Assembly: GCF_947499705.1 (NCBI RefSeq)
Contig: NZ_CANMPJ010000001.1
Location: 1,709,501 to 1,773,500 of the forward strand
Source: an uncultured Erythrobacter sp.
Lineage (GTDB): Bacteria; Pseudomonadota; Alphaproteobacteria; Sphingomonadales; Sphingomonadaceae
Length of the DNA stretch: 64,000 nucleotides
Direction of reading: 5' to 3'
Of this stretch, positions 17,155 through 52,484 are shown piece after piece. Under the pieces are notes generated by a model. The model was not told where the DNA came from and ran no database searches. It saw only the letters and a program-made list of their open reading frames with translations. Within the stretch, counting starts at the first letter, position 1. Each line of letters starts with the position of its first letter. Position numbers and translations under genes: made by a program.

Positions 17155-17225
17155 CCACCCTCTCCCCCGCCCTTCGCACCCCCATGGTACATCCTCAGGG
17201 GTGCGAAGGGCGGAGGAGAGGGTGG
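17155..17225. repeat. long palindromic repeat (28-bp arms) between tuf and rpsJ
   Basis: Arms 17155-17182 and 17198-17225 are complementary at 27 of 28 positions, separated by a 15-base loop. The arms begin CCACCCTCTCC and end GCGAAGGGCGG-type sequence. Two more long palindromes of similar C-rich/G-rich style occur at 21415-21480 and 24346-24434, suggesting a dispersed repeat family. Confidence 0.85.
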
Positions 17226-21383: not shown

Positions 21384-21414
21384 TCTTCTACTCCTTCGGA
21401 GTGCTTCGGTGCCG

Positions 21415-21480
21415 GCCCACTCCCCCACCCGACCACCCAATGACTTTACCCTGTTTGGGTGGTCGGGTGGGGGAGTGGGC
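21415..21480. repeat. long palindromic repeat (26-bp perfect stem) between rpsL and rpsG
   Basis: Arms 21415-21440 and 21455-21480 are perfect inverted repeats around a 14-base loop. It lies inside the str operon transcript, 32 bases before the rpsG start. The arms are C-rich/G-rich like those at 17155-17225. Confidence 0.9.
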
Positions 21481-21569
21481 TGGTGCCGCAAGGGTCGGAC
21501 GGATGTCCGACCCGCACCAAACAAAAACTAAAACCGTGCCGCCAGCTTAGCGCCAGTGGCACGCACCCA

Positions 21570-24129: not shown

Positions 24130-24239
24130 TCGTCATCGCGAGGCGGCCCGGAGGGCCAACGCGGCGATCCATGGACCATCGCTGCGCCTAGATGAGAGGG
24201 TGGACCATGGATTGCTTCGCCTACGGCTCGCAATGACGA
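24130..24239. repeat. inverted-repeat element without gene (relative of the GIY-YIG element)
   Basis: The left arm starts TCGTCATCGCGAGG and ends GATCCATGG (24130-24174). The right arm 24205-24239 reads CCATGGATTGCTTCGCC through CAATGACGA. The same terminal sequences frame the GIY-YIG gene at 50024-50399. Here only 30 bases lie between the arms, and no reading frame is present. Confidence 0.75.
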
Positions 24240-24345
24240 ATGGGTAAGTTGCGGACCAAGCCAGAAACCATTTTCCTACTCAGAGGGAATGTGCATTTTG
24301 GGGACGGTCATGGATGACCCTTCCGAACAGCGCGACCAAACTTCT

Positions 24346-24434
24346 CCCCTCCCGCTTGCGGGAGGGGTCGGGGGTGGGCCTCCGACGCCGGACGATACGC
24401 GCCCACCCCTAACCCCTCCCGCAAGCGGGAGGGG
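24346..24434. repeat. nested palindrome cluster
   Basis: Arms 24346-24379 and 24401-24434 are complementary at 32 of 34 positions. Each arm itself contains a perfect 22-base palindrome (CCCCTCCCGC, two bases, GCGGGAGGGG). This nested form is the best-preserved member of the C-rich/G-rich palindrome family seen at 17155 and 21415. It fills much of the gap before the gene at 24530. The remaining sequence between 23848 and 24529 shows no further gene. Confidence 0.85.
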
Positions 24435-24529
24435 AACGCTCACCAACCACCGCGCCATCGCCCGCCAAGCCACCTCCGCGGTGGCACTTCGTGCCGTCTC
24501 CGCTTTCGCTCCGACTCCGCCTACTCACT

Positions 24530-25390: not shown

Positions 25391-25645
25391 GTTTCCTTAC
25401 GCCCTCAGGCGCCGGGCGCGGGCGGTGTCCTCGCTTCGCTCGTTCAGCTTCGCTTCCCGGCCCGCTTGGCTACGCCGCATAAGCGGCGGCGCGCAGTCGC
25501 GCTTGCGACGCCTGCTGCGTCGAACCAGTCCTACTTAGCTGGCTTGGCCGCGGAGGACGGGCCGAAGGCCCGCAAGCCCGACCGGGCGCCCGCAGGCCCG
25601 ATAGGGCCGAGGAAATCGCACCCCGGACGGGGTGCGGAACACAAA
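25391..25645. repeat. large structured inverted-repeat element, copy A (degraded left end)
   Basis: The right part (about 25560-25645) contains GCCCGATAGGGCC, then CGAGGAAATCGC, then a hairpin CACCCCGGACGGGGTG and an ACAAAA end. This is the same order of modules as in copies at 47862-48083 and 52215-52435. The left end is recognisable only by TCCTCG and its hairpins. It fills most of the gap between 25386 and 25668; no gene is seen in it. Confidence 0.6.
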
Positions 25646-25667
25646 AAACGCGCGAAACAAAAAACCC

Positions 25668-47821: not shown

Positions 47822-47861
47822 GTTCTATATTTGGCAATGCTCACCCTGAAGGGCAAGCATC

Positions 47862-48083
47862 TTTGTTCCGCACTCGCATCCGCGAGCGCGATTTCCTCGC
47901 TCACGCGACCTAAAGGTCGCATCGCTGCGGGCGGCCGGTCGGCCTTGCGACGCCTATGGCGTCGAGCCAGTGCAACATGGCGATCGCTTCGCGGAGCACG
48001 GCTGCGCAGCAGCCGCAAGGGCGACCGCCCGCCCGCAGGCCCGATAGGGCCGAGGAAGTCGCAGCCCGGATGGGCTGCGCCAA
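47862..48083. repeat. large structured inverted-repeat element, copy B (about 222 bp)
   Basis: The left end reads TTTGTTCCGCACTCGCATCC and continues to GCGATTTCCTCGC; the right end, reversed, reads TTTGGCGCAGCCCATCCGGG and continues to GCGACTTCCTCGG. The two arms align over about 100 bases and contain hairpins of different sequence at equivalent positions (GCGACC-TAAA-GGTCGC left, GGCCC-GATA-GGGCC right). It lies between ubiK and the TspO gene. A relative of the same length is at 52215-52435. Confidence 0.8.
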
Positions 48084-48084
48084 A

Positions 48085-48633
48085 CTAAAGCACCACTTCC
48101 ACCGCAGCGCCGCTGTCGCCGGTCAATCCGCCGTCCGGATTTTCGACAATGAACATGTAGTTGAGCGCCCCGGCAAAACACAGCCATCCGAGATACGGCA
48201 CGAGAAGCAATCCTGCGCTCCGCCTCACTCGCCAAAACGCCGCAATTACGACGAGCAGCGTCACAATCGCCGCGCCGATCACGATCAGTCCGCCTTGCAT
48301 ATTTTGCGCGCCGAAGAACACTGGCGTCCATGCCAGCGTGATCGGGAAATGCACCGCGAACACGACCAGGGCGAGCGGGCGTCCAAACGCTCCCCAAGCG
48401 CTGGCCACCAGCGCGACAGCAAACCCTATCATCGCAAAGAGAATGCCCCAGACAATACCGAACGCCGCGGTCGGCGGAAAGATCGACGGCTTTGTAAGGC
48501 TATCGAACCAGACCGTATCGGGGCTGCCGAAACGGCCGGACAGGAAGCCCAGCAAAACAATCAGGGGAACCAGAAACAGCGACCAACGCAGGAAGCTGGC
48601 GCGAAGTTGCGCCTTTGATGCCAGGAAATTCAT
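48085..48633 (-). CDS. tspO: TspO/MBR-family membrane protein
   Basis: From the ATG at 48633 (MNFLASKAQLRASFLRWSLF), with GGGAGAG nearby, the protein is 182 residues with five membrane segments. Family signatures: SLTKPSIFPPTAAFGIVWGILF, with the W-x2-LF pattern, LAWTPVFFGAQNMQGGL and LGWLCFAGALNYMFIVENP. TspO binds porphyrins and, in related alphaproteobacteria, modulates tetrapyrrole and light/oxygen responses. The longer upstream frame lacks a better start. The 302-base gap to 48936 shows nothing else I can support. Confidence 0.92.
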   Translation of the reverse strand: MNFLASKAQLRASFLRWSLFLVPLIVLLGFLSGRFGSPDTVWFDSLTKPSIFPPTAAFGIVWGILFAMIGFAVALVASAWGAFGRPLALVVFAVHFPITLAWTPVFFGAQNMQGGLIVIGAAIVTLLVVIAAFWRVRRSAGLLLVPYLGWLCFAGALNYMFIVENPDGGLTGDSGAAVEVVL

Positions 48634-48935
48634 TATCTCTCCCGATAGCACGAAACCACGCTTTGCGCGCATGATTCGCCTGAAGCAGCATTCGAGCGGC
48701 GAGATACACATTCCATGGCGCGGGACCAAACGCGCTGGCTTGGCTCACCCTCATTTCGGCGCAACAAACGCCAGAATCCCCAGCCAAATTCGAAAGTTCG
48801 GTAAATGGACGTGCGTTTTGCAATCATTGTGTTAGCTTCGCCACATTCTTGCCGCGATTCGGGACGCTACACGGCAAGGAATCATCCATTCGCGCGTCCT
48901 GCCCGATCAAGGGCCCAATTTGGGGAACGAGTTAC

Positions 48936-49205
48936 ATGAAAAAGACCAACTTCGCTTCGATGCTCGCAGTCGCTGGCGGTCTCGCTGTTGCAACCGCCGC
49001 TTGCTCGGCACCTGCTGAAGACGGCGCTACCGACGCCGATACCACTGCTGTCGCTGAATGCGCTGCAGGCTGCTGTGCAGCTGCATGCGAAGGCGCTGGC
49101 TGCTGCGCTGCTGCCTGTGAAGGTGCTGCATGTGCCGCTGCATGCGAAGGCGCTGGTTGCTGCGCTGCAGAAGGCTGCTGTGCCGCTGCTTGCGAAGCTG
49201 CCTAA
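48936..49205 (+). CDS. cysteine-rich small lipoprotein-like protein
   Basis: The 89-residue product starts with a lipoprotein-type signal (MKKTNFASMLAVAGGLAVAT, then AACS; lipid-modified Cys at residue 23, with a non-canonical Thr at the -3 position). After an acidic linker (AEDGATDADTT) residues 42-86 contain 14 cysteines in imperfect repeats of the type CCAAACEGAG. Nothing but Ala, Gly, Glu and Cys is present there. The pattern suggests dense metal binding or a disulfide-linked envelope anchor; no family is recognised. A terminator follows at 49230-49267, so it is probably a single-gene unit. The repeats are also visible in the DNA. Confidence 0.8.
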   Translation: MKKTNFASMLAVAGGLAVATAACSAPAEDGATDADTTAVAECAAGCCAAACEGAGCCAAACEGAACAAACEGAGCCAAEGCCAAACEAA

Positions 49206-49229
49206 GCTTTAACGCTTCAAAGAATGCTG

Positions 49230-49267
49230 ACGGCCGATCGCAACTCCATGTTGCGGTCGGCCGTTTT
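49230..49267 (+). terminator. intrinsic terminator of the cysteine-rich gene
   Basis: Arms 49230-49243 and 49251-49264 match at 13 of 14 positions (ACGGCCG...CGGCCGT outer part) around a 7-base loop and are followed by TTTT and further T residues. It starts 25 bases after the stop codon at 49205. Confidence 0.85.
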
Positions 49268-49342
49268 GCTTTGCGGGCGGAGCCGCCTATAAAACTCGCT
49301 TTGACAGTAACCTTCCGTGCTTCGTCACAGTAACTGGATATT

Positions 49343-50014
49343 ATGGACAAGCTTCAAGCCGCGCAGACCGTTATCGAGACAATCACGCAAATGGCGCAGG
49401 AGCAGCGCCCGCTGATGCTTCGTGTCGTGCCCGAAGATGGTGCGAATTTCTGGACTCACTATCCGGAAAAGGACGCCCGCGACGAGTTCTGCAAAGCGCG
49501 CTGGTATTACCATGTGCATGCTCCGGGAAACCGCGATGCCGATGAGCACGGCCATTTCCATCTGTTCCTGCACCGGACGCAGCTGCCCGATGGGTTGGAG
49601 CCGAAGGTTTGGCCGCCTCAGGGTGAAGAAGCGAAAGCTCACGTGACCCACCTGATCGCCCTGTCGATCGACACGCTCGGTATCCCGCGCTCGTGGTTCA
49701 CCGTGAACCGCTATGTGACCAACGAATTCCTCTATCCCGCCGAGACGATGATCGAGCATCTCCCGGCATTCAACGTCGATCACACCAAGGAAGACGACCT
49801 CGTCAACCGCTTCGTCACTGCGATGGTGGCGCTTTACAGTGAAGAGATCGAAGACTTGCTGCGCCAACGCGATACAAGGCACGCTGCACTGGTCGAAGAG
49901 CATGGCGACAAGGCGTATGAGCTGGCCTCTGGTGAAGAGGTGCTGTCACAGATCCCAATCGATCTGGATGCCAAGATCAATTCGCTCGACTGGCCCGAGG
50001 AAGCAGAGGCGTAG
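49343..50014 (+). CDS. protein of unknown function (DUF6969-like)
   Basis: The 223-residue cytoplasmic protein has the block FCKARWYYHVHAPGNRDADE followed by HGHFHLFLHRTQLPDG, with a histidine-rich core, and VTHLIALSIDTLGIPRSWFTVNRYVTNEFLYPAETM in two blocks. This pattern is shared by an uncharacterised family that I recall as DUF6969; I cannot check it here. The clustered histidines may bind metal. It stands alone after the cysteine-rich gene; a functional link between the two is possible but unproven. Confidence 0.7.
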   Translation: MDKLQAAQTVIETITQMAQEQRPLMLRVVPEDGANFWTHYPEKDARDEFCKARWYYHVHAPGNRDADEHGHFHLFLHRTQLPDGLEPKVWPPQGEEAKAHVTHLIALSIDTLGIPRSWFTVNRYVTNEFLYPAETMIEHLPAFNVDHTKEDDLVNRFVTAMVALYSEEIEDLLRQRDTRHAALVEEHGDKAYELASGEEVLSQIPIDLDAKINSLDWPEEAEA

Positions 50015-50023
50015 CTCTCAATT

Positions 50024-50399
50024 CGTCATTGCGAGGAGCGCAGCGACGAAGCAATCCATGGCCTAACGGTTAAGCTCAAAGAACAGGTCTCGCCAATCCG
50101 GATCGGTGGCTTCGATCAACGCGATCTTGGCCTTTCTCGACCCACCTTTGATCTGTTTCTCTCGTTCAATAGCAGCTTCCATCGTTGAATGTAGCTCAAG
50201 CCAAACGAGAAGCTTGCATCGATACTTCTTCGTGAATCCTTCGACCAGGCTCTCGCGATGCTGCCACGCTCGCTTTGGCAGGTCAGACGTGACTCCGGTA
50301 TAGATCGCGCCATTCTTCTGGTTCGCCATCATATAGACGGCTGGCTGAAAGTTGGATGATCGGTCCATGGATTGCTTCGCCTCCGGCTCGCAATGACGA
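50024..50399. mobile_element. inverted-repeat element carrying a GIY-YIG gene
   Basis: The left arm (50024-50061) begins TCGTCATTGCGAGGAGCG and ends AAGCAATCCATGG; the right arm (50365-50399) is its inverse with a slightly different centre. The two arms match at about 13 bases on each outer side and 14 bases on each inner side. The gene occupies exactly the space between: its stop is one base from the left arm and its ATG is part of the CCATGG of the right arm. No target duplication or transposase is seen. Confidence 0.75.
50063..50368 (-). CDS. small GIY-YIG nuclease-domain protein
   Basis: The 101-residue protein has the GIY-YIG hallmarks: VYMMANQKNGAIYTGVTSDL (VYMM ... IYTGVT as the GIY-YIG pair), RAWQHRESLVEGFTKKY with the catalytic-type Arg and His, and a Glu in the helix EAAIEREKQIKG. 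Single-domain members are related to the endonuclease domain of UvrC and to small intein/repeat-associated nucleases; cleavage activity is inferred. The start codon lies inside the inverted repeat of the element framing it. Confidence 0.9.
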   Translation of the reverse strand: MDRSSNFQPAVYMMANQKNGAIYTGVTSDLPKRAWQHRESLVEGFTKKYRCKLLVWLELHSTMEAAIEREKQIKGGSRKAKIALIEATDPDWRDLFFELNR

Positions 50400-50407
50400 G
50401 TTCCTTC

Positions 50408-51142
50408 TTAACCCCGCCTCGCCGAAATCAGGAATTCCACATTGCCTTGAGGTCCGGTGATCGGACTTTCAACAATTCCTTCGATATCCCAGCCAAGTCC
50501 CTCAAGCCATTCGCGAACTTCGCGGCACACGCGCTGATGCAGAACCGGATCGCGAACGACTCCGCCCTTGCCGACCTCTTCACGCGCAACATCGAATTGC
50601 GGCTTAATCAGCGCAACCAAACGGCATTCCGACGCGGCCAGTTCGAGCGGGCGCTCGAGCACTTTTGAAAGGCTGATAAAACTCGCATCGCACACAACCC
50701 AATTACTCGGGCGGTTTATCTGCTCGGGCGTCAGAATTCGTGCGCTGGTCTGTTCCAGCACTGTCACACGATCATCCTGGCGCAGTTTCCACGCAAGCTG
50801 ATTAGTGCCGCTGTCGACCGCGAACACATGGGCAGCGCCCTTGGTGAGCAGCACATCGGTGAAACCGCCGGTCGAGCTCCCGATATCCATCGCCACCGCA
50901 CCGCTCGGATCGAGTGCGAAGTGCTCGATTGCATGCGCCAGCTTGATCCCACCGCGACTGACCCAAGGGTGGTCGCGCCCGCGCACTTCAAGCGGCGCAT
51001 CCTCGGCCAATTGCTGGCCCGGCTTGGCGATCTTGGATTCGCCCGAAAACACCGTTCCCGCCATGATGAGCGCCTGCGCACGCGTGCGGCTTTCGGCCAG
51101 TTCCCGCTCGACCAGCAGGTGATCCGCGCGGCGCTTAGCCAT
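50408..51142 (-). CDS. tlyA: TlyA-family rRNA 2'-O-methyltransferase
   Basis: TlyA methylates ribose 2'-OH groups in 16S and 23S rRNA and sets capreomycin sensitivity in mycobacteria. The 244-residue protein has an N-terminal S4 RNA-binding domain (ADHLLVERELAESRTRAQAL), then a Rossmann methyltransferase domain with AMDIGSSTGGFTDVLL, and the K-D-K-E residues in VSRGGIKLAHAIE, VVCDASFISLSKVL, VALIKPQF and GNVEFLIS. It is read away from the GIY-YIG element, and no partner gene is linked. Confidence 0.93.
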   Translation of the reverse strand: MAKRRADHLLVERELAESRTRAQALIMAGTVFSGESKIAKPGQQLAEDAPLEVRGRDHPWVSRGGIKLAHAIEHFALDPSGAVAMDIGSSTGGFTDVLLTKGAAHVFAVDSGTNQLAWKLRQDDRVTVLEQTSARILTPEQINRPSNWVVCDASFISLSKVLERPLELAASECRLVALIKPQFDVAREEVGKGGVVRDPVLHQRVCREVREWLEGLGWDIEGIVESPITGPQGNVEFLISARRG

Positions 51143-51213
51143 CGGTCGGATTTTCTGCGGAGAGCGGCGAATAGGTCATGGACGCACCCGCCGTTAGCGC
51201 GCATTTAGGCGAC

Positions 51214-51789
51214 ATGAAAGCAATCCATTTCAAGCTTGTCAGCGCCATGGCACTCGGCGTGTCAGCCTGCGCATGCGTTCCAACCGCAGAAGCGCCAGCC
51301 GCTCCATCCGCACCGATTGCAACCCCTGCACCGGCTCCGACACCCACTCCCGCTCCGCCGCCGCCTCCTCCTGCTGTGGAGGAGCCGCGCTTCGAAAACT
51401 ATCTCGATGCGCCGCAGACGGTCGGAACTTGGGGTTACGGCGCCGACCCCGACACGACGATGGCGTTCTTCGGCACTGGAGAGAACGAACTTGCCGCGTC
51501 CTTCGTCGTACTCTGCCGCGTTGGTACTGGTGAAGTCTGGCTAGGACGGCGCGGGGCGAACTCCCCGCGTACGATGGAAATCAAGACCGAAACGGTGACG
51601 CGCGTGCTTCAAGCCGATTTGATGCGCCGCGAAGGCAGCATTGTCGTCGCCAAACTATCAGCGCGGGATCCGCTGCTTGATGCGATGGCAATTACGAAAG
51701 GGCGCTTTGCAGTCGGCGTGGAAGGTATGCGGACACTATACCTACCAGCTTGGGCCGAAGTGACGCGCGCGATTGAAGATTGCCGGTAA
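51214..51789 (+). CDS. proline-rich lipoprotein of unknown function
   Basis: From the ATG at 51214 the protein is 191 residues and begins with a lipoprotein signal (MKAIHFKLVSAMALGVSACA; lipid-modified Cys in SAC). An Ala/Pro-rich spacer (PTPAPPPPPPAVEEP) leads to a folded domain that includes SFVVLCRVGTGEVWLGRRG. Such spacers let an outer- or inner-membrane lipoprotein cross the peptidoglycan. No family recognised. An ATG at 51178 is upstream in frame but gives a worse signal peptide. Confidence 0.7.
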   Translation: MKAIHFKLVSAMALGVSACACVPTAEAPAAPSAPIATPAPAPTPTPAPPPPPPAVEEPRFENYLDAPQTVGTWGYGADPDTTMAFFGTGENELAASFVVLCRVGTGEVWLGRRGANSPRTMEIKTETVTRVLQADLMRREGSIVVAKLSARDPLLDAMAITKGRFAVGVEGMRTLYLPAWAEVTRAIEDCR

Positions 51790-52040
51790 GATTCGTTTCC
51801 CGCTTTCCACAGCCATGCGATGATTGACATGCCTCAAAGGCACTAAAACAAGAAACGCCCAAGGTTTCCCCTGAGCGCGTTCCAATATCGTCTGAGCGAA
51901 GGCGCATTATTCTGACGTGGGAAAAGTTTTTTTCAAGTCTTGTCTTGGCACCTCTTCTGACTCAGATTGGTTGGTGAGGTTAGCGGTGAACGCGAACTTC
52001 GGCCCCCGGTGATACGGCGAGGTCTTGGCTTTCAAGCGCG

Positions 52041-52054
52041 AAAGGAGGTGATCC
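52041..52054 (+). promoter_or_regulatory. Shine-Dalgarno sequence fully complementary to the 16S rRNA 3' end
   Basis: AAAGGAGGTGATCC is the exact reverse complement of the bacterial 16S rRNA tail GGATCACCTCCTTT, a match far longer than usual (4-7 bases). It stands one base before an ATG (52056) and directly opens the small reading frame there. Confidence 0.85.
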
Positions 52055-52055
52055 G

Positions 52056-52112
52056 ATGTCTCATGGTTCAGTAGCGAGGTCGGTGAAGATCCCTACGGAG
52101 CATATTCGGTAA
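52056..52112 (+). CDS. 18-residue peptide reading frame with super-strong ribosome-binding site
   Basis: The frame encodes MSHGSVARSVKIPTEHIR and a TAA. It lies in a 695-base gap between the lipoprotein gene and ilvE. A small hairpin (CGGTAA-TCTCC-TTACCG, 52107-52123) covers its stop codon, with CTCC in the loop, and a terminator follows at 52164-52199. The peptide may be real, may be a leader, or the transcript may titrate ribosomes through its Shine-Dalgarno match. No family recognised. The upstream 250 bases contain no other gene; a TTGACA at 51824-51829 is the best -35-like hexamer I see. Confidence 0.45.
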   Translation: MSHGSVARSVKIPTEHIR

Positions 52113-52163
52113 TCTCCTTACCGAGTGAGGTTTCGTGAGCGGCACTTCCGGCCGCTGACCATG

Positions 52164-52199
52164 AAAGGGCGGTTCCCCGACGGGCGGAGCCGCCCTTTT
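52164..52199 (+). terminator. intrinsic terminator after the 18-residue frame
   Basis: AAAGGGCGG and the following TTCC (52164-52176) pair with GGAG and CCGCCCTTT (52186-52198), a 13-bp stem with one G-U pair, then TTT and a later T-run. It marks the end of a short transcript of about 150-350 bases that is separate from ilvE. Confidence 0.8.
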
Positions 52200-52214
52200 C
52201 ATTTGGTTTTTTTG

Positions 52215-52435
52215 TTTTGCGCACGCCATCCGGCGCGCGATTTCCTCGACCCTGACGGGTCTGCGGGCGGGCGGTCGCCCTTGCGGCTGCTGCGCAGCCG
52301 AGCTCCGCGACCAAGCCAGTACCTTGGAATGGTTCGGACCCGATAGGGTCCGCAAGCCCGACCGGGCGCCCGCAGCGACGCGCCCGAAGGGCGTATGAGC
52401 GAGGAAATCGCGCTCGCGGATGCGAGTGCGCAAAG
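52215..52435. repeat. large structured inverted-repeat element, copy C (about 221 bp)
   Basis: The left end reads TTTTGCGCACGCCATCCGG and continues to GCGATTTCCTCGACC; the right end, reversed, reads CTTTGCGCACTCGCATCCG and continues to GCGATTTCCTCGC. Internal hairpins include ACCC-TGAC-GGGT, a GCGGCTGC-type stem, GGACCC-GATA-GGGTCC and GCGCCC...GGGCG. The element lies directly upstream of ilvE, and its right end is open in the ilvE frame from an ATG at 52395. Confidence 0.8.
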
Positions 52436-52484
52436 AAAGACTCAAATCTTGCCCTTCGTTTCTTCCGATACTAATCGCTCCCCC

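Follow-up and report, generated by a model that had tools for sequence, protein, structure and literature searches.

Short repeated hairpins whose stems change from copy to copy and yet stay paired raise the question of what is preserved in them, the fold or the sequence. Three such intergenic elements, A, B and C, lie in a 64,000-nucleotide (nt) stretch of an uncultured Erythrobacter sp. genome (contig NZ_CANMPJ010000001.1, positions 1,709,501 to 1,773,500; hereafter the window), which carries only a fraction of the repeat family to which they belong. The initial annotation of this stretch had described B and C as copies of nearly equal length with shared ends and A as a degraded copy, and had argued, from stems that differ in sequence while remaining paired, that the folded form is selected rather than the sequence, either as RNA or as single-stranded DNA. 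The paired form is indeed maintained; the second part of that argument does not stand, since loops and linkers are conserved in sequence. Build, pairing in place, a conserved linker, polarity and genomic position were all observed directly, and we give about even credence to the reading that A, B and C are old, occasionally spreading, non-autonomous intergenic repeats working like the repetitive extragenic palindromic (REP) sequences and bacterial interspersed mosaic elements (BIMEs) of enterobacteria.

B matched C in blastn with 81% identity over query positions 5-222, as the reverse complement (E 2.5e-52), so that the two elements are oppositely oriented. Their near-equal length and common ends were borne out by a covariance model of the half element (R1, made from 14 of 26 aligned rows picked for equal length of the first hairpin), which spans 47861-48087 for B and 52212-52438 for C, the latter having an added GACTC end to 52443. 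Each full element consists of two inverted halves around a centre of ~35 nt, the R1 match to B being made up of 47861-47948 (+) and 48015-48087 (-), and as RNA both B (z -8.2) and C (z -7.3) fold better than 200 of 200 dinucleotide-shuffled sequences. The unit is the half, a polar stretch of ~105 nt with four hairpins (H1 to H4) in which loops and linkers are conserved and stems are variable. It runs from a T-rich end through H1 (loop ATCC), linker 1 (TTTCCTCGCTCA), H2, linker 2 (TCGCTGCGGGC), H3 (loop GGTC or AGTC) and TTGC to H4. H2 comes in two lengths, and the short variant is found in the right half of B as well as one half of C. The stems first singled out as covarying all exist, but not all of them stand at equivalent positions: GCGACC/GGTCGC and GGCCC/GGGCC are H2 of the left and right halves of B, and ACCC/GGGT is H2 of the left half of C, whereas GGACCC/GGGTCC is H4 of the right half of C.

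Copies were compared as a set of 160 halves, comprising 65 from the own genome (of 66 matches) and 95 from loci of named genomes (of 96), one match cut by a locus end having been dropped from each set. The commonest loops among them are ATCC, GGTC/AGTC and TGAA. Halves are found singly or as inverted pairs with mostly non-matching stems; singles account for 37 of 51 elements, although some of these bear a second type of arm that R1 misses. This second arm (GCCCTCAAGCGCC...GCTTGGCT) replaces the H1 arm in some copies, A included, and as a query it gave 17 matches, some partial, at 16 places in the genome. A is accordingly not simply degraded: its right half is ordinary, and its left half, read from the sequence, is of the second arm type (GCCCTCAGGCGCC...GCTTGGCT) and contains an additional insertion. 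By eye, some copies carry additional hairpin modules inserted at H2 or H3; an extra module (a hairpin plus GTCTTCGACT...CTCCG) stands at the place of the H3 loop or in the H2 region at L018, L027, L044, L045, L188, L190, L191 and L192, a sign, on inspection by eye, of nested growth. Direct-tandem halves, spaced by ~80-100 nt, were also seen (G019:C1 2375475-2375730; G185:C35 1201-1364 and C38 50190-50338) and may be compared with clustered BIMEs.

In alignments larger than the three window copies, the step proposed along with the initial claim, compensatory change was in excess both between copies and at one orthologous site in 25 species. In the 14-row seed alignment, 95.2% of cells were paired, two-sided change affected 9 of 18 pairs, none of 500 shuffles scored as high on four of five covariation measures, and sliding the partner by 1-3 columns lowered pairing to 31-45%. 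Among the 160 halves, H2 and H3 were placed by the linkers, independently of pairing. H3 could be parsed in 112 halves and was paired in 434 of 448 cells, whereas shuffling gave 0.748 on average and 0.801 at most; GGGC, GGCC, GCGC and GCCC are its common stems. H2, parsed in 101 halves, showed 577 of 606 cells paired against a shuffled mean of 0.868. H1 was picked in this count by at least 4 of 7 paired positions, which biases its percentage. The pairing is local: in the full elements amenable to parsing, 20 of 29, H3 was paired in 156 of 160 cells within halves and in 110 of 160 between halves. This comparison gives no support to a conserved fold in which the two halves pair at long range, yet the minimum-energy fold of B uses such pairing. 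The same H3 occurred in both halves of 1 of 17 elements against 4.6 expected (P 0.016, under a stricter parse and in a small sample), which suggests that a match between halves, and with it one long palindrome, is avoided.

The excess was also present where a single site was followed across species, behind rplA (ribosomal protein L1, named by its sequence), which was read in 90 of 108 matching genomes. A type-1 half follows the gene in 25 of the 90, a type-2 half in 5 and the H3 part alone in 3, with nothing recognised in 57; on one parsimony resolution of a short-gene tree, this presence in 33 of 90 corresponds to 16 gains and 6 losses. H1 begins 7-11 nt past the stop codon in 25 of 25 type-1 rows, and a terminator-like stem, identified by a simple pattern, then follows in 20 of 25. 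With H1 placed by the best stem adjoining linker 1 and the tree built from ~240 nt, H1 underwent 28 two-sided Watson-Crick changes in the 25 species (200 shuffles gave 5.3 on average and never more than 12), together with 7 changes on one side only, 3 of which left the pair broken. The two-sided changes are spread over 16 of 21 changing branches, 8 of which have one pair changed on both sides, and so represent more than swaps of whole hairpins; such swaps seem to occur too (L268 versus L300). Fourteen of the 28 are transition-type exchanges and the remaining 14 are not. Between species, H1 stems differ by 0.318 and third codon positions by 0.328, as compared with ~0.2 for loops and 0.029 and 0.068 for the linkers (19 of 25 rows parsed, 18 with the full coding stretch), the conservation of linker 1 being biased because type-1 rows were found by it. 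The 11-nt linker 2 played no part in detection. It is exact in none of the 60 rows assigned to neither type and, despite a mean third-codon-position difference of 33% among 18 of the species, in 17 of 25 type-1 rows.

The position behind a stop codon extends to the family as a whole. With genes called by a codon-usage script in place of an annotation pipeline, which by eye missed a few evident stops (L015, L016), a stop codon lay no more than 20 nt from H1 in 30 of the 65 own halves and in 39 of the 95 named ones (69 of 160), mostly at 4-14 nt, and within 20 nt on the H4 side in 1 of 65 and 1 of 95, respectively. As H4 itself takes up part of its side, 40 nt makes a fairer limit for that side; 14 of 160 halves then have a stop codon there, against the 69 of 160 for H1. 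None of the 51 elements is inside a called gene, and 20 of 51 stand between convergent genes as compared with 3 of 38 window gaps of at least 60 nt (P 0.001). B adjoins the stop codon of a TspO-family gene, which by eye has the same stop position in the element-free relatives L196 and L199, and C is placed right after the terminator-like stem of a stretch resembling the Caulobacter small RNA (sRNA) CC2171; some other halves also follow terminator-like stems. That the elements are intrinsic terminators themselves is not favoured, the T-rich run standing, by eye, before H1 in the reading direction and not after a stem.

The own genome (3.67 Mb) holds at least 62 half-element matches to R1 at E <= 0.01, with 150 of 4273 candidates scored. 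Using blastn with B, copies were found in the own genome and in 24 of 24 sampled relatives of the same genus (one weak copy in G020), and weak matches in 3 of 16 genomes from other families (E 3e-4 to 8e-4). R1 matched 41 of 119 genomes and 34 of 96 genera in the sampled family at E <= 0.001 and 21 of 147 genomes in a sample of the order at E <= 1e-5, all 21 being from the same family, in a list that does not give the number of the 147 from other families; both searches used stricter filters, with which weak matches are lost. A DNA pattern scan of named genomes gave at least 119 stretches, 80 of them given as loci and, among the matches listed, mostly from Erythrobacter, Porphyrobacter, Altererythrobacter, Qipengyuania and unclassified relatives. 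Ten of the 80 came from clearly unrelated bacteria; since none of the 10 matched R1 at E <= 0.001, these were taken as chance pattern matches. Plasmid and phage records gave no match to B at E <= 1e-5. Rfam gave no gathering-score match at A, B or C and nothing above chance, with none up to E 1 at B and solely a chance-level proV match over C (15.4 bits against a gathering score of 88.5, E 0.54).

Sites differ between relatives in whether they are occupied. The B site is a short spacer without a model match in 12 of 15 relatives looked at (20 fetched), the C site carries a family member in 9 of 20 relatives, often of another build, and at the compared locus the best long matches are 74-83% identical. 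The best pair among the 57 halves compared is 90% identical (median best partner 84%), so that no recent burst took place here. Remnants of one member beside another were noted by eye at L022, L034, L035, L204 and L208. GAGTC(T/C) ends near H1 occur in 14 of 65 own and 6 of 95 named halves, and GACTC was seen by eye at the C-site junction in several species. The Y1 transposase domain PF01797 had no match in the own genome in a search that was positive in 6 of 14 control genomes and did not cover other transposase families. Methylation at the ends was also considered, by comparison with the Dam sites of IS10, because GANTC, the CcrM site, occurs upstream of H1 in 17 of 65 own and 10 of 95 named halves; the idea was weakened, as only a minority of halves have the site and GAGTC makes up 20 of its 28 occurrences, which would be expected of a conserved end and not of a free middle base.

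In manner the family is of a known kind, the dispersed intergenic palindromes that include REP, CIR and RIME sequences and miniature inverted-repeat transposable elements (MITEs). REP and BIME sequences of E. coli and its relatives are likewise intergenic palindromic units, single or paired in inverted orientation, some of them close behind stop codons (PMC12306157): REPs within 15 nt of a stop codon are counted at 446 of 4,072 in one paper and at 260 of 496 in an earlier one that it cites (PMC12306157). A REP unit is a palindrome of 20-40 nt (PMC3733652), whereas the Erythrobacter unit has ~105 nt and four hairpins, its 26-row consensus has neither the GTAG nor the CGTC tag described for REPs (PMC3733652), and the PF01797 search found no RAYT (Y1) transposase in its own genome. 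The CIR sequences of Caulobacter and other alphaproteobacteria resemble it as intergenic stretches of ~110 bp with two inverted-repeat arms and a linker, but they have GANTC at the terminal loop, while here it is near the outer end and in a minority, the two being compared by description (PMC2229807). RIME and the Sm-repeats of Rhizobium and Sinorhizobium, likened by description as well, share dispersed intergenic placement, unknown function and conservation of both sequence and secondary structure, in another alphaproteobacterial lineage (PMC2573895). MITEs such as QMITE2 of Coxiella, which is mostly in 3' untranslated regions, are short inverted-repeat elements with stable folds (PMC10969869); candidate terminal repeats were seen here in a minority of halves. 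No title on such repeats in Erythrobacter was found among the top-ranked papers, in a search that left subscription papers mostly outside, and the Erythrobacter family, its four-hairpin polar unit, the drifting but paired stems and the place behind stop codons were not met there.

How such a unit might act can be proposed from its position. In the REP/BIME-like reading a half, once placed, would be retained because its hairpins act at the 3' end of the gene. A ribosome positioned at the stop codon would cover H1, which would make termination, ribosome release or decay of the mRNA 3' end the likeliest action, and an effect on translation termination or mRNA decay may be envisaged by analogy with the E. 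coli REPs no more than 15 nt from stops. E. coli REPs have been reported to stall ribosomes and, when deleted from a 3' untranslated region, to leave the mRNA with a shorter half-life (PMC12306157). Stems would be free to drift as long as they pair, and halves that do not match would keep an element from folding into one long hairpin. A bolder form of this proposal is doubtful: that the elements are genus-wide 3'-end cassettes in which loops, linkers and local pairing alone are selected, stems drift and are even driven apart between halves, each half folds by itself beside the stop of the gene it follows and affects the ribosome during termination or the 3' end of the mRNA, and modules are swapped between copies.

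Several observations weigh against a role of this sort. The fifth covariation measure, which counts further pair types, was equalled by 239 of 500 shuffles. Non-Watson-Crick stem cells comprise 40 G-T and 67 A-C (35 without the A-C cells of H1, 32 in number, of which 30 are at two neighbouring positions), with 14 and 31, respectively, in the 74 halves that have a stop codon close by and 26 and 36 in the other 86. G-T is thus no commoner than A-C, contrary to what would be expected if gene-sense RNA were selected, and gives no sign that the gene-sense strand is the selected one; the one-sided changes at rplA, 4 to G-T and 1 to A-C, are too few to decide. Transcription of the elements is itself inferred and an RNA form unproven. 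These counts do not settle the choice first offered between RNA and single-stranded DNA, and DNA hairpins, either RNA strand and a mutational repair of palindromes are all candidates; template switching inside palindromes could give part of the pattern without selection. Behind rplA the element is cut short in L285 and L302, degraded in L271 and interrupted in L255 and L265. No individual copy appears indispensable, since 57 of 90 species are element-free there and 91 of 160 halves lack a called stop codon within 20 nt of H1. Where a single half stands between tandem genes, H1 faces the stop codon in 12 of 17 cases, which alone is not significant (P 0.14), and the stop-codon position could reflect selection against harmful insertions together with loss of spacers.

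A tentative but serious possibility is that the elements are purely selfish, non-autonomous mobile hairpins in the manner of REPINs or MITEs, recognised through hairpins and linkers by an enzyme acting in trans and surviving only at harmless sites behind stops and terminators. Dispersed copies, inverted pairs, presence or absence at orthologous sites (12 of 15 relatives without a match at B, 9 of 20 with one at C, 33 of 90 at rplA), remnants of members beside other members and the minority GAGTC(T/C) ends all fit such a history; the negative PF01797 search, within the scope given above, the lack of recent copies and the retention of pairing and linker 2 in place across species fit it poorly. 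Selection on the fold would be dispensable if the paired change were mutational, with template switching or hairpin-templated repair perfecting palindromes. Quasi-palindrome correction does occur in bacteria, and the 28 two-sided against 7 one-sided changes on the rplA tree, the 14 of 28 that are G-C/A-T exchanges of the transition kind, expected from a one-sided mutation followed by correction, and the absence of a strand preference among G-T and A-C cells are all in keeping with it. We nevertheless regard this explanation as unlikely, as the linkers, which such a process would not protect, are the most conserved parts, the other 14 changes at rplA fall outside the transition type, the exchange in H3 is of G-C against C-G (58 to 50 at pair 3), and polarity towards stop codons is left unexplained. 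Very unlikely, in our estimate, is that the elements are DNA sites which extrude as cruciforms and are bound by a protein such as a nucleoid or supercoiling factor. Gyrase acts at some BIMEs, and conserved linkers and loops, the lack of strand preference among mismatches and the over-representation between convergent genes would suit sites of this kind, for which orientation towards one gene and the common occurrence of lone halves, some of which bear second-type arms missed by R1, would not be expected.

Coordinates of the elements, their hairpins and the adjoining features are collected below.

Table 1. Positions in the window of elements A, B and C, their component hairpins and adjoining features.
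Feature	Position	Strand	Basis
Element B, full, two inverted halves	47862..48087	+	blastn, model R1
B left half H1, loop ATCC	47869..47890	+	sequence reading, alignment, model R1
B left half H2 (GCGACC/GGTCGC), between both linkers	47905..47920	+	sequence reading, alignment
B left half H3 (GGCC-GGTC-GGCC)	47933..47944	+	sequence reading, half-versus-half comparison
B left half H4	47949..47963	+	sequence reading, half-versus-half comparison
B centre, between halves	47964..47999	.	sequence reading
B right half H4	48000..48014	-	sequence reading, half-versus-half comparison
B right half H3, unlike left H3, self-paired	48019..48030	-	half-versus-half comparison
B right half H2, short variant (GGCCC/GGGCC)	48038..48051	-	sequence reading
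B right half H1; outer end 5 nt from TspO-family stop codon	48060..48079	-	
TspO-family gene, stop codon 48085-48087	48085-48672	-	
Element C, full, opposite to B; GACTC at 52439-52443	52212..52443	-	blastn, model R1
C terminator-side half H1	52220..52239	+	sequence reading, model R1
C terminator-side half H2, short variant (GACCC/GGGTC)	52248..52261	+	sequence reading
C terminator-side half H3 (GGGC-GGTC-GCCC)	52269..52280	+	half-versus-half comparison
C terminator-side half H4	52285..52299	+	half-versus-half comparison
C other half H4 (GGACCC/GGGTCC)	52336..52351	-	half-versus-half comparison
C other half H3 (GCCC/GGGC, own reading)	52356..52367	-	half-versus-half comparison
C other half H2	52381..52393	-	sequence reading
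C other half H1	52409..52430	-	sequence reading, model R1
Element A: ordinary half 25572-25644 (-) plus left second-type arm with inserted stretch	25398..25646	-	outer limits by eye
sRNA-like stretch resembling Caulobacter CC2171, outside the repeat family	52033..52196	+	RF01867, 51.9 bits, E 7.9e-10, below gathering score 75

Other features of the window may be recorded alongside. The region ~51900-52210, around the CC2171-like stretch, is 77-93% identical in 20 of 20 fetched relatives, and the stretch, judged by its similarity to the family, may be an unannotated Erythrobacter member of RF01867. An open reading frame (ORF) of 101 amino acids at 50063-50368 (-), which resembles a small GIY-YIG nuclease, is flanked by TCATTGCGAG / CTCGCAATGACGA repeats (50362-50399), with a 95% identical copy of the repeat at 24202-24239. 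At 48936-49205 (+), an 89-amino-acid lipoprotein-like protein has, by eye, repeated cysteine-rich units, its DNA also being repeated, and gave no Pfam match at E <= 0.001. Further inverted repeats, whose arms measure 28-49 nt and are 80-96% complementary, stand at 21392-21503, 24345-24435 and 17155-17225.

It has long been asked whether the palindromes dispersed in bacterial genomes are parasites or belong to the 3'-end machinery of their hosts. Because the rplA site can be followed in dozens of species with the element, without it or with another version of it, the question becomes testable in this family, which also offers a case for separating selection, module exchange and palindrome-correcting mutation in the evolution of paired stems.

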